From the NCBI RefSeq assembly GCF_000420745.1, contig NZ_ATVN01000004.1, positions 62,001 through 126,000 of the forward strand: a DNA stretch of 64,000 nt. Reading direction: 5' to 3'. A program made the position numbers and the translations under genes. This document shows, one piece after another, positions 3,487-7,983 of this stretch. The notes under the pieces are model-generated. The model had not been told where the DNA came from, made no database searches, and saw only the letters and a program-made list of their open reading frames with translations. The DNA is from Pseudorhodobacter ferrugineus DSM 5888. GTDB lineage: Bacteria; Pseudomonadota; Alphaproteobacteria; Rhodobacterales; Rhodobacteraceae. How positions within the stretch are numbered: position 1 is the stretch's first letter; each line of letters opens with the position of its first letter.

Positions 3487-3921
3487 CTATAGATCAATCA
3501 TCATGTCGCGGTGGGGAATGCCCGCATCATCATATTCGGGGCCAAAGGCCACAAAACCCAGCTTTTCGTAAAACGCAATCGCGTGGGTTTGCGCGCCCAG
3601 CTTGACCACCTCGATGCCCGCCATGCCGCGAAACTCCTCAACCGCTGCGCCAATCAGCGCCGCACCCAGCCCCGTGCCACGTTGATCCTGCAACACACAA
3701 ACCCGGCCAATCTTGCCCGTCGCGCCCTTAGTCAGCAACCGCGCCGACCCCACAGCCCGCCCATCAACCCAAGCCAGCAAATGCACCGCCGCGTCATCCA
3801 GATCATCGCGCTCGTCCGCCTCGGATACGCCTTGTTCCTCAATAAACACCACGCGCCGCAACGCCAGACAGGTTGCGATGTCGCGGGTCACTTCAATCCG
3901 TACTTTCGCAGGGGTATTCAT
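3487..3921 (-). CDS. GNAT family N-acetyltransferase (ElaA/YjcF-like)
   Basis: Predicted acetyl-CoA-dependent acetyltransferase of 144 residues; substrate unknown. The pyrophosphate-binding motif A is visible as [10 protein letters not shown] at about residues 79-88, followed by the C-terminal [11 protein letters not shown] strand/helix. The early segment [19 protein letters not shown] is characteristic of the ElaA/YjcF branch. Its ATG overlaps the stop codon of dapE by four bases (ATGA), so the two are translationally coupled; this gives no direct clue to substrate. Confidence 0.85.
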
Positions 3922-5066
3922 GCAAAATACTCTGTCAAAATGCGGGTATAGATGGTTTTCAACTGATAGATCTGCGCCACCTCGACCCGTTCATCGACTT
4001 GGTGCATGGTTTTACCCACCAGCCCAAATTCCACCACGGGGCAGTGATCCTTTACAAACCGTGCGTCCGATGTCCCCCCTGATGTCGACAGCACAGGCTC
4101 CACCCCCGTCTCGGCCTGCACCGCCCGCGCCACCAGCGCCGACAACTCACCGGGGGGCGTCACAAAGCTCTCGCCCGAGATTTTGATTGCAACCTCAAAC
4201 GCCACATCCGTCGCCGCCTGCATCGCCGCCCCTTCGGCCCGCAGCCATTCCGAAATGCTGGCGCCGCTGTGGCTGTCATTGAACCGAATATTCACCGTCG
4301 CACGGCAGGTCGCAGGGATCACATTCGTCGCTATATTGCCCGTATCAATCGTGGTAATCGCAAGCGTGCTTGGGTCAAAATGATCAGTCCCTTGGTCCAA
4401 CGCGTGACACGCCAACTTGTCCATCAACCGCACCGTCGCGTTCAGCGGGTTGTTGGCGCGGTGCGGATAGGCCGAATGGCCCTGCACGCCGCGCGCCACG
4501 AAATGCGCCGTCAGCGACCCGCGCCGCCCCACTTTCATCATCTCGCCCATCACATTCGGGCAAGTGGGTTCGCCCACCAAACACACGCTCATCGCCTCAT
4601 TGTTCGCAGCCATCCAGTCCAATAAGGCCACAGTGCCATCGGCGGCCACGTCTTCCTCATCCCCCGTAATCGCCAGAATAACTGCCCCGTCCGGCGGCGT
4701 GCCCCGCACGAAATCAATCGCGGCAGCGGCAAACGCGGCGACCCCCGATTTCATATCGGTCGCCCCGCGCCCATACATCCAGCCGTCCACAATTTCCGCG
4801 CCAAACGGGTCATGCGTCCACGCCGCGACATCGCCCACAGGCACCACATCGGTGTGGCCGTTGAACCCGAAACTGCGGTTCGCCCCCGCCTGCCCCCAGC
4901 GCGCAAAAAGGTTGGCAATCCCGCCCCGATCCACCCGCGTACAAGTAAACCCGCCTTCGGTCAAAACCGCCTCGAGCAGCACCAACGCCCCGCCATCGGC
5001 AGGGGTGACCGAATTGCAACGGATCAAATCAGCGGTCAGGGCAACTGGATCAATTGGGTCAGACAT
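3918..5066 (-). CDS. dapE: Succinyl-diaminopimelate desuccinylase
   Basis: Hydrolyses N-succinyl-LL-diaminopimelate to LL-diaminopimelate and succinate in lysine and peptidoglycan-precursor synthesis. The 382-residue length matches the M20 dizinc family. Visible metal-site residues are H71 and D73 (GHTDVVP), D104 ([10 protein letters not shown]) and the general-base pair E137/E138 (ITGDEED); the C-terminal SGGTSDARF and MHQVDERV motifs are also present. An excellent ribosome site (AAGGAGGATCCT) directly precedes the ATG. The next gene, a GNAT acetyltransferase, overlaps it by four bases. Confidence 0.95.
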
Positions 5067-5273
5067 AGGATCCTCCTTATTCTCGGCAAACTAAAGGGCT
5101 ACACAGCCAACCGATAACGCCTCGCCCCAACCCGCGCAACTGTTGCCAAACCGCGTTTGCCTGTTGCAACAGCGCAACCTTTGGCTGGGACAAATGACAA
5201 CCCAAATGTGAATACTCCGTGACAAGTGCCAATATTTACGCTTTGTTAGCGACATAATAAGTCCTGAGGCAGG

Positions 5274-5384
5274 GCAAACGCTGGGCCAACGAGCCCGAAC
5301 GAGTGGAAATAAAATAGTACTTGGCCGGTAAAACCGGGCAGATAAAGCGTTTGTGCTGACCTCCAAAGGAAATTGGGGGCAGAA
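5274..5384 (+). promoter_or_regulatory. Candidate structured 5' leader of the Hint gene
   Basis: Hand folding gives a closing stem 5275-5282 (CAAACGCT) with 5346-5353 (AGCGTTTG), enclosing two hairpins: 5283-5286/5293-5296 (GGGC/GCCC) and 5325-5329/5333-5337 (CCGGT/ACCGG). Downstream, 5360-5366 pairs with 5373-5379, burying the GGGGG ribosome site in a 7-bp stem with a 6-base loop. The remaining 5067-5273 is AT-richer and holds no gene I can support. Whether this is a true regulatory RNA is inference. Confidence 0.4.
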
Positions 5385-6959
5385 ATGGCAACTGGTGCCG
5401 AATTAACCTACACAACCAATGCTTCGGCAATGGCGATGGCGAACGCAATCTTTGGGTCTGGCGTGACCGTGCGAGCAGCAAGCTACTCTGGGCCCAACAA
5501 CTCCTCTGCGATCTATTCCAACGGCCAGCGGTCGCCGAGTGTTGTCCCATCCGAAAACGGCGTCATTCTGTCCACCGGCAACGTCCGTGACTTTACCCAA
5601 AGCAGCGGGGATCCCAACCGCAGCACAGGCACATCAACCGACACCAACGGCTTCGACAACACGTCCGATTTCAACGCCATCGCTGGGACCAACACCTATG
5701 ATGCCGTCTGGCTGGATGTTGACTTTACCCCCGCCGGCAATACCCTGACAATGAGTTTTGTGTTCGCGTCCGAAGAATTTCCCGAATACATCAATAGCCA
5801 GTTCAACGATGTTGTGGGCGTATGGGTCAATGGCAGCCATGTCCCGATCTCGGTTGGCTCTGGCAGAACTTCGGTGAACAACATCAATGGTACCACCCAG
5901 CAGAACCTGTTCGTGAACAACACCAATGATGCGTATAACACCGAAATGGACGGGTTCACCGTTACTCTGACTTTGACGATGCCGGTCATTGCAGGCACAC
6001 TGAACTCTATCCGCATCGGCATCGCGGATGCGGCGGATGCGAACTATGACAGTAACCTGCTGATCGGCGGCGACTCTCTTCAAACAACCCTTGTCGCTCT
6101 TGATGACAGCATGAACCTGAACCCCAACGGGGTAAAGACGCTGGACGTGCTGGCCAATGATATCCGCCCCTCGGGTGCGACACTGACCATCACCCACATC
6201 AACGGCATAGCGGTGACGGTGGGGTCTACGATCACCCTTCCATCCGGTCAAACAGTCAAACTCAATGCCGATGGCACCTTTACCATCACTGGCGACGGGC
6301 AGGTTGAAACCAAAAACTTTACTTACACAGTCTCGGATGGCTTGGGCCATACCGACACCGGCTTTGTCAAAATCAACTCGATCCCTTGCTTTGTCGCAGG
6401 CACAGCTATTCGCACCCCTTATGGCGAGGTGCCGGTCGAAACCTTGCTGCCCGGCGATCTGGTGATGACGCAGGATGACGGCCCGCAACCACTGCGCTGG
6501 ATCGGGCGGCGCACGGTCGCGGCCATCGGCAACTTTGCTCCCGTCCACATCCGCGCAGGCACCTTTGGCCAGCACCGCGACCTGATGGTATCCCCGCTGC
6601 ACCGCATCTTGATCCGCGACAGCCTGTCCGAACTGCTATTCGGTGAATCCGAAGTGTTGGTGGCGGCCAAGGATTTGGTCAACGACCGCTCGGTCCGCTA
6701 TGTTACAGGCGGTCAAGTTGAATATGTGCACCTTCTGTTTGACCGCCATCAGGTGGTTTTTTCCGAAGGTCTGGCGACCGAAAGCTTCCTTCCGGGCCCG
6801 CAAACGGCAAAAAGCTTTGAGGCCGATATCGTGACTGAAATTTGCGCGATCTTCCCCGAGATCGACCCCGAAACCGGCCACGGCTACAGCCCCGCCGCGC
6901 GCCGCACCCTGAGGACGTTCGAAGCCCGGCTCTTGTTCGCACTCGGTCGGGCGGCCTAG
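5385..6959 (+). CDS. Choice-of-anchor L plus Hint domain surface protein
   Basis: Probably a secreted or surface protein of 524 residues with no classical signal peptide; its role is unknown. Residues about 1-235 match the choice-of-anchor L type (FVFASEEFPEYINSQFNDVVGVWVNG split over a beta-rich, Asn-rich region). About 235-335 is a cadherin/VCBS-like module (LDVLANDI, FTYTVSDGLGH). About 340-480 is a Hint_2 domain: N-terminal Cys in CFVAGTAIRTPYGEVPVETL, GDLV, the block-B-like VSPLHRILI, and EYVHLLFDRHQVVFSEG. Hint folds self-process in other proteins. ATG 5385 was preferred over TTG 5373 because GGGGG lies five bases upstream; that site may be hidden in a hairpin. The next gene is a second Hint-family protein only four bases downstream. 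Confidence 0.85.
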   Translation: MATGAELTYTTNASAMAMANAIFGSGVTVRAASYSGPNNSSAIYSNGQRSPSVVPSENGVILSTGNVRDFTQSSGDPNRSTGTSTDTNGFDNTSDFNAIAGTNTYDAVWLDVDFTPAGNTLTMSFVFASEEFPEYINSQFNDVVGVWVNGSHVPISVGSGRTSVNNINGTTQQNLFVNNTNDAYNTEMDGFTVTLTLTMPVIAGTLNSIRIGIADAADANYDSNLLIGGDSLQTTLVALDDSMNLNPNGVKTLDVLANDIRPSGATLTITHINGIAVTVGSTITLPSGQTVKLNADGTFTITGDGQVETKNFTYTVSDGLGHTDTGFVKINSIPCFVAGTAIRTPYGEVPVETLLPGDLVMTQDDGPQPLRWIGRRTVAAIGNFAPVHIRAGTFGQHRDLMVSPLHRILIRDSLSELLFGESEVLVAAKDLVNDRSVRYVTGGQVEYVHLLFDRHQVVFSEGLATESFLPGPQTAKSFEADIVTEICAIFPEIDPETGHGYSPAARRTLRTFEARLLFALGRAA

Positions 6960-6963
6960 CGAT

Positions 6964-7983
6964 ATGGCAGGCTGGCTCGCCCTTTCCGATCGACCTACAG
7001 CTTTGGACGCGGGGACTGGCCAGTCCTTGCTGACCAGAGCGACGATGGTGTTTGAATTCGACCTGCCATTGGAAGGGTCGACCATCCTGCTGGACTTCAA
7101 AATCAACGACACATGGCCTCGCGCGTTTGCTGTTTTTGTCGATGATGTCGCTGGCGTGGTAATCTTGCACCGCCAAGGTGACCGATTGCTGCGCCATGTC
7201 CTGCCGGGTCCGCTTGACTTGCCCAGCTCAGGTGTCGGGCGCATTTCCTTTAGCTGGGATGGCCCCGGCAAAACTTGGGCACTTGGCTTGGAACACCAGG
7301 GCAAAGGCTCAGACACGGCCTGCAAAACCCGTGGCCGCGACCCGATGCCCATGCTGATGCAAGATATTTTGCAGATCTGCGACGGGTCCGGTGATACGAT
7401 CCGTCATAAATCCGTGCTGTGGTTTGGCGCGATGAATGGCGATGATCTACCCGCCCGCGCGCCATGGGTCGGCGTGCAAACGCCGGTGGACACCATTGAC
7501 GGCCCCGTCCCTGCGGGCAAGCTGCGCGCCGGGGATCTACTGCGCACCGATGATGGTGATTTCGCCGCACTCCTTTCGGTTCAGCACATGGATTTGCCCA
7601 GTCGCGGCTCGTTCAGCCCCGTCATGTTGCGCGCGCCCTATTTCGGGGCCGAGACCGATATTCTTGTGTCGTCAGATCAACTGATCGCTCTATCCGGCGA
7701 TGAGGTTGAATATCTGTTCGGCGATGAAACCGTTCTGACAATGGCCGGAAACGTCACCGATGGCCGCGCAGCCCTGATGGACTACCGCCGTGCTGTTTCC
7801 TCTTGTGTGTCCTTGGACATCGGCACCCCGCGCCTGATTTGCGCCCAAGGCTGCCGCTTGCTGACCCATTCCAACACAGTATCTTGGCAGACGCCGGACT
7901 ATCCGCATCCGGTGATACAGGCCTATGAAACCATTCCATTGCTCGACATGCTTGGCCGGTCCGGCAACCGCTCGGCAGCCTAA
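6964..7983 (+). CDS. Hint-domain family protein lacking the catalytic Cys
   Basis: Protein of 339 residues, four bases after the preceding Hint gene and so probably cotranscribed. The N-terminal 130 residues look like a beta-sandwich found in many Rhodobacterales Hint proteins (WPRAFAVFVDD, ISFSWDGPGKTWALGLE). The C-terminal half aligns by eye with Hint_2 (TPVDTIDGPVPAGKLRAGDLL; VEYLFGDETVL). However the usual starting Cys is replaced (WVGVQTP), and the block-B His is missing (VSSDQLIAL instead of VSPLHRILI). It therefore may be a non-processing partner. No signal peptide is visible. Function unknown. Confidence 0.8.
   Translation: MAGWLALSDRPTALDAGTGQSLLTRATMVFEFDLPLEGSTILLDFKINDTWPRAFAVFVDDVAGVVILHRQGDRLLRHVLPGPLDLPSSGVGRISFSWDGPGKTWALGLEHQGKGSDTACKTRGRDPMPMLMQDILQICDGSGDTIRHKSVLWFGAMNGDDLPARAPWVGVQTPVDTIDGPVPAGKLRAGDLLRTDDGDFAALLSVQHMDLPSRGSFSPVMLRAPYFGAETDILVSSDQLIALSGDEVEYLFGDETVLTMAGNVTDGRAALMDYRRAVSSCVSLDIGTPRLICAQGCRLLTHSNTVSWQTPDYPHPVIQAYETIPLLDMLGRSGNRSAA

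Follow-up and report, generated by a model that had tools for sequence, protein, structure and literature searches.

Leader location and gene context

The region upstream of a choice-of-anchor-L/Hint gene in the window (the whole 64,000-nucleotide stretch of Pseudorhodobacter DNA that was analysed) raises the question of whether its folded RNA controls access to the ribosome-binding site and, if so, what sets its state. The original prediction placed a possible RNA switch at 5274–5384. Our analysis suggests that the unit starts ~20 nt upstream of 5274, with 5253–5384 as the probable 5′ leader of the choice-of-anchor-L/Hint mRNA. A transcript start is expected near 5253, upstream of the 5300 limit set by the original prediction and ~13 nt before the word GAGGCAG, because a conserved −35/−10 pair is found there among orthologues (Table 1); the −10 element of the window is itself a weak match. 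A start at this predicted position would set hairpin P0 at the 5′ end of the mRNA. The A-rich tract that follows was considered as a −10 box and discarded, since it has no conserved T positions and a better −35/−10 pair lies upstream.

The controlled gene product was assigned from its domain scores (NF038133, E = 1e-49; Hint_2, E = 2e-52). The Hint_2-only gene that follows is probably in the same operon and co-transcribed, and a gene of this kind also lies beside many orthologous leaders.

Table 1. Coordinates of the leader, its predicted signals and its neighbouring genes in the window.
Feature	Position	Strand	Basis
Divergent dapE-type peptidase M20 gene	3918..5066	−	Pfam; syntenic marker of the locus
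Predicted −35 element GTGACA	5219..5224	+	TTAACA/RTGACA conserved ~48 nt 5′ of GAGGCAG in most of 90 orthologues
Predicted −10 element TTTGTT	5242..5247	+	TAnnnT conserved ~25 nt 5′ of GAGGCAG in orthologues
A-rich 5′ end of predicted transcript, AUAAUAA	5254..5260	+	A-rich columns −13 to −6 relative to GAGGCAG in 90 orthologues
P0, 5′-terminal hairpin GUCC-UGAGGCA-GGGC, GAGGCA in loop	5261..5275	+	Strands co-vary between orthologues
5′ GAGGCAG, anti-anti-SD strand of helix P1a	5266..5272	+	Near-invariant; pairs with 5356–5363
P1b 5′ strand (closing stem)	5275..5282	+	Pairs with 5346–5353; covariation
P2 hairpin GGGC-CAACGA-GCCC	5283..5296	+	Orthologues show compensatory changes; paired in 62% of cells
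Internal GAGUGG, candidate second recognition site	5301..5306	+	GAGCAG in many orthologues
Variable third hairpin CCGGU-AAA-ACCGG	5325..5337	+	From the fold; sequence and position not conserved
P1b 3′ strand	5346..5353	+	Fold and covariation
Anti-SD strand CUGACCUCC	5356..5364	+	Partner either 5266–5272 or the SD
SD-occlusion hairpin, 5356–5366 with 5373–5382	5356..5382	+	Compensatory changes in all 7 pairs
Shine-Dalgarno (SD) region GGGGGCAG	5375..5382	+	
Controlled gene, encodes a 524-aa protein with choice-of-anchor L, Ig-like and Hint_2 parts	5385..6959	+	Domain matches
Second gene, Hint_2-only protein	6964..7983	+	Hint_2, E = 4e-13; 4 nt 3′ of the anchor-L gene

Fold and exclusive helices at the ribosome-binding site

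The closing stem described by the original prediction, CAAACGCU with AGCGUUUG, was confirmed as a perfect helix of 8 bp, and it encloses hairpins as had been proposed: the MFE fold of 5250–5400 contains the stem and a multi-way junction, with GGGC/GCCC (5283–5286/5293–5296), an AU-rich hairpin and a CCGGU/ACCGG hairpin inside it. The z-score of this fold was −3.51, and that of 5253–5384 was −3.95; in both cases, 0 of 200 shuffles were equally stable. The proposed occlusion hairpin was borne out as a pairing, with 5360–5366 (CCUCCAA) fully complementary to 5373–5379 (UUGGGGG) across the SD and extendable by 5356–5358/5380–5382, but it is absent from the lowest-energy fold. There, the anti-SD strand pairs instead with 5266–5272, at −54.6 versus about −51 to −52 kcal/mol. 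The GAGGCAG at these positions is a near-copy of the SD region, and CCUGAGGCAG sits ~10 nt 5′ of the reported closing stem. This 5′ element, which had escaped the original prediction, is what makes the two states exclusive.

The two states of the window RNA thus calculated are within ~3 kcal/mol of each other, with the 5′ pairing (ON) as the default; in other genera, unlike the window RNA, the calculated default is OFF. Across 90 orthologues, the two states were about equally favoured, P1a exceeding 0.5 in the calculated ensembles of 39 leaders and the SD hairpin in those of 42, with all fold energies computed for RNA free of pseudoknots and bound factors. P1a pairs in 88% of cells, and departures in its anti-SD strand are mostly C-to-U, which keeps G-U pairs. 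Since the 5′ strand is invariant, no double changes were found for P1a in the orthologue alignment, and the case for this helix is therefore one of complementarity and energetics. Among orthologues, the sequence of the SD itself is often GGGGCAG or GAGGCAG, which presents the anti-SD strand with two near-copies as partners.

By comparison and by calculation, two exclusive helices are predicted to control access to the SD. The earlier likening to a translational riboswitch stood in that the leader is conserved, structured and able to hide the ribosome site, but its metabolite-sensing part was unsupported, with no evident conserved ligand-binding core between the helices. The switch is well supported as a structure, to which we infer a factor, a direction and a function below.

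Covariation among orthologous leaders

The original prediction had staked itself on covariation in orthologous leaders, and this was found: the closing stem covaries. In a model-made alignment that was fitted to the structure, and whose pair counts accordingly lean towards it, double changes were present at 17 of 17 pairs (143 cells, as against 53 after shuffling), and with the partners slid, covariation fell from 0.310 to at most 0.112. An alignment-free swap test showed that the strands of P1b fit their own partners better than those of other leaders (p<1e-4). The same test gave p<5e-5 for P0, whose stem strands change in step between orthologues (GUCC/GGAC, GACC/GGUC and AACC/GGUU); a second register of this hairpin was unsupported by a shuffle test. 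When changes were placed on the DapE protein tree, the inner three P1b pairs had undergone at least 17, at least 17 and at least 15 independent Watson-Crick-to-Watson-Crick changes, and the signal is therefore not the shared ancestry of a few changes.

In 87% of cells the SD hairpin was paired, and each of its pairs had compensatory changes. Its swap test was marginal (p=0.13 in one run, p=0.036 in another), probably owing to sequence similarity. GAGGCAG (columns 0–7) was essentially invariant across the 90 orthologues, in part because only leaders with this word had been kept. An internal GAG[CT][AG]G was found in 58 of the 90 anchor-L leaders, versus 9.2 in shuffles, and lies either before or after P2.

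Distribution of the leader

The leader was first traced in relatives by DNA search and then with covariance models built from 7, 33 and 98 sequences, which recovered it in 32, 108 and 127 of 395 sampled Rhodobacteraceae genomes, respectively, essentially one genome per genus. As the searches were iterative, this count depends on the model, the E-values are rough and the weakest matches include chance ones. Outside the family, 289 genomes across the class gave five matches, apparently unrelated and about the number expected by chance at the cut-off. The named records found to carry the leader with a strict pattern, at three loci only, are Rhodobacteraceae, including Phaeovulum. A one-mismatch pattern search of the 395 genomes exceeded its reversed-pattern control, yet the number and heterogeneity of its matches made them unusable.

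The leader lies nearly always between a divergent dapE gene and a choice-of-anchor-L or Hint gene. A DapE homologue was present at 103 of 109 leader loci tested, including most of those with only a Hint gene downstream. Among 22 anchor-L loci inspected, the exact word GAGG[CT]AG was found upstream of 12 of 13 dapE-linked genes, with a single exception, versus 0 of 9 unlinked paralogues; the plasmid-borne homologues examined (Pseudosulfitobacter, Paracoccus aminovorans) had no leader. At four loci (L124:2001-2126, L120, L127 and L134), the leader precedes a Hint-domain gene only; leader and dapE remain, and the anchor-L gene has apparently been lost or moved. In one genome (G127), a weaker model match (R3, E ~1e-5) was observed upstream of an mraZ-like gene (L153:1501-1648, minus strand).

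Comparison with known leader classes

In agreement with the earlier remark that the fold resembles no class that could be named, the window and 14 orthologous loci gave no Rfam match at the gathering score, nor did 5150–5450 up to E=10. A loose similarity to the GEMM class had been noted, together with the lack of its conserved core. The likeness consists of a local GGGCAAAC string, present in the window and in close relatives, and of a target gene that is possibly adhesion-like; the core is indeed missing, as the Rfam c-di-GMP-I model did not match and the GGGCAAAC-like string is not family-conserved, varying freely after GGGCA in orthologues.

With translational riboswitches and other anti-SD/anti-anti-SD leaders, this one has in common mutually exclusive SD helices and one conserved adjoining gene. 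It differs in having no evident ligand core and in that its anti-anti-SD strand is a near-invariant word in a 5′-terminal hairpin, found again in the leader of another gene. Leaders repressed by CsrA/RsmA carry a short motif more than once, in the loop of a 5′ hairpin and again at the SD or the start codon. The layout here is similar, but the motif GAG(G)CAG is without a GGA core: GGA does not occupy both loop and SD, and the conserved loop word is GAGGCA. A leader-peptide or ribosome-mediated attenuator was also considered and rejected, as columns 7–16 after GAGG are T-poor and contain no conserved ATG, GTG or TTG.

Other motifs are likewise restricted to Rhodobacterales, in gene contexts that differ from that of the anchor-L leader: the SAM/SAH riboswitch upstream of metK (PMC2864571), and HRC-8-4 between cco operons and uORFC-8-2 upstream of cysS (PMC8632094). 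A text search of the main texts of PMC2864571 and PMC8632094 turned up no leader of this kind and no Rhodobacterales motif associated with an anchor-L or Hint gene. Searches of the open-licence literature returned no paper on the leader or on anchor-L genes in Rhodobacter, and no described role for choice-of-anchor-L/Hint proteins in Rhodobacteraceae. The leader is an RNA family that occurs in about one third of the Rhodobacteraceae genera sampled and covaries strongly; neither an Rfam entry nor a description of it was found.

A second gene family with the same word

GAGGCAG with a second GAGCAG also precedes a gene for a Wza-like polysaccharide-export lipoprotein in at least eight genera. These loci (L137, L166, L201, L203, L206, L208, L209 and L210) were reached via weaker model matches, and the one representative protein tested had Poly_export and SLBB domains. 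The eight leaders open with a mostly A-rich stretch, and GAGGCAG, AGGAG and GAGCAGUGA follow it unchanged in all of them; GAGGCAG with GAGCAGUG is likewise invariant across the eight genera. The GAGCAG ends directly at the GUG start codon. These leaders are roughly 50 nt long and have no P1/P2 scaffold; the anchor-L and Wza-like leaders have the recognition word in common, not the scaffold.

Proposed mechanism and alternatives

We consider it fairly probable that 5253–5384 switches translation between two states and that its 5′ strand is at the same time the recognition site of a trans-acting repressor. P1b and P2 would form a scaffold common to both states. In the ON state, the strand CUGnCCUCC that follows P1b would pair with the 5′ GAGGCAG, extending P1 and leaving the SD free; in the OFF state, the same strand would pair with the SD region. 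A repressor, either an RNA-binding protein or an sRNA, would read the 5′ word; bound to the P0 loop, it would sequester this word and so let the anti-SD strand close over the SD, and the start region may be a further binding site. The helices, their exclusivity and the fixed and common word are taken from sequence comparison, and we infer from them a factor that exists, represses and acts through P0. Two observations point to a repressor acting in trans at the 5′ word: the word stays constant even though the anti-SD strand that pairs with it changes along with the SD, and the leader of an unrelated surface gene carries it too, together with a second copy, GAGCAG.

An Hfq-dependent sRNA as the factor, with the A-rich 5′ end recruiting Hfq and the sRNA pairing with GAGGCAG/GAGCAG, is unlikely on the present evidence. 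In its favour, the word is immediately preceded by an A-rich tract in both families of genes, and the GAG[CU][AG]G variants are those that G-U pairing tolerates. On both strands of the window genome (G000), however, there was no non-coding perfect 11-nt complement; leaving the leader aside, the 11-nt element or its perfect complement occurred only in probable coding sequence. This slightly disfavours a strongly complementary sRNA, though not one that pairs over a shorter stretch.

A metabolite riboswitch of a new class, in which a ligand pocket built of P0, P1, P2, GAGGCA and GAGCAG chooses the state of the SD, would account for the compact multi-helix domain, the conserved unpaired words and the exclusive SD pairing, yet we give it rather little credence. 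The only conserved words are GAGGCAG and GAG[CU][AG]G, in a variable arrangement: from genus to genus, loops differ freely in length, and P2 and GAGCAG in order. Moreover, the controlled genes are surface genes rather than metabolic ones, Rfam gave no match, and the words recur in the roughly 50-nt Wza leader, which lacks the P1/P2 scaffold. This recurrence before the Wza-like gene favours a trans-acting repressor over a metabolite riboswitch.

It is less probable still that the leader acts free of any factor, as an RNA thermometer or a constitutive tuner whose two helices set basal translation. The near-equal energies of the states in many orthologues are consistent with it, but neither the near-invariance of GAGGCAG beyond the needs of pairing nor its reuse in a second gene family would be explained, and Rfam gave no match to a thermometer family (ROSE, fourU). 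The least credible reading takes the 5′ word for a transcription-factor site in the DNA close to the start site, with RNA pairing secondary. It fits the fixed position just 3′ of the predicted promoter, but the RNA-level signals of P0 covariation and P1b compensatory changes and the conserved SD complementarity speak against it.

If a trans-acting repressor reads the word, the likely surface roles of both genes suggest control of attachment or capsule-type functions. More tentatively, an undescribed Rhodobacteraceae regulator, an RNA-binding protein or sRNA, might recognise GAG(G)CAG where it lies in a 5′ hairpin or at the start of translation, and might co-regulate a widespread surface protein and polysaccharide export via an SD-mimicking 5′ switch. 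The choice-of-anchor-L/Hint and Wza-like export genes would then be a candidate two-gene regulon with one recognition word, and because both candidate targets carry this word, the regulator could be hunted directly by RNA pull-down. Such a regulatory handle would help to find the role of choice-of-anchor-L/Hint proteins.

Further occurrences of the word

A broad regulon was considered and rejected, as RMCCYGAGGCAG matches in seven genomes lay mostly inside coding frames. In the window genome, no second clear regulon member was found, and no Wza-type element rose above the control. Elsewhere, AAAAAAGAACCGAGGCAGGGC was observed upstream of a polysaccharide chain-length (Wzz-type)-like protein with no Pfam match (L163:1501-1589). 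Words of the ACCCGAGGCAG type were seen just before the start codons of other genes at L204:1501-1552 and L149:1501-1529, both on the minus strand, where GAGG could be the SD itself.
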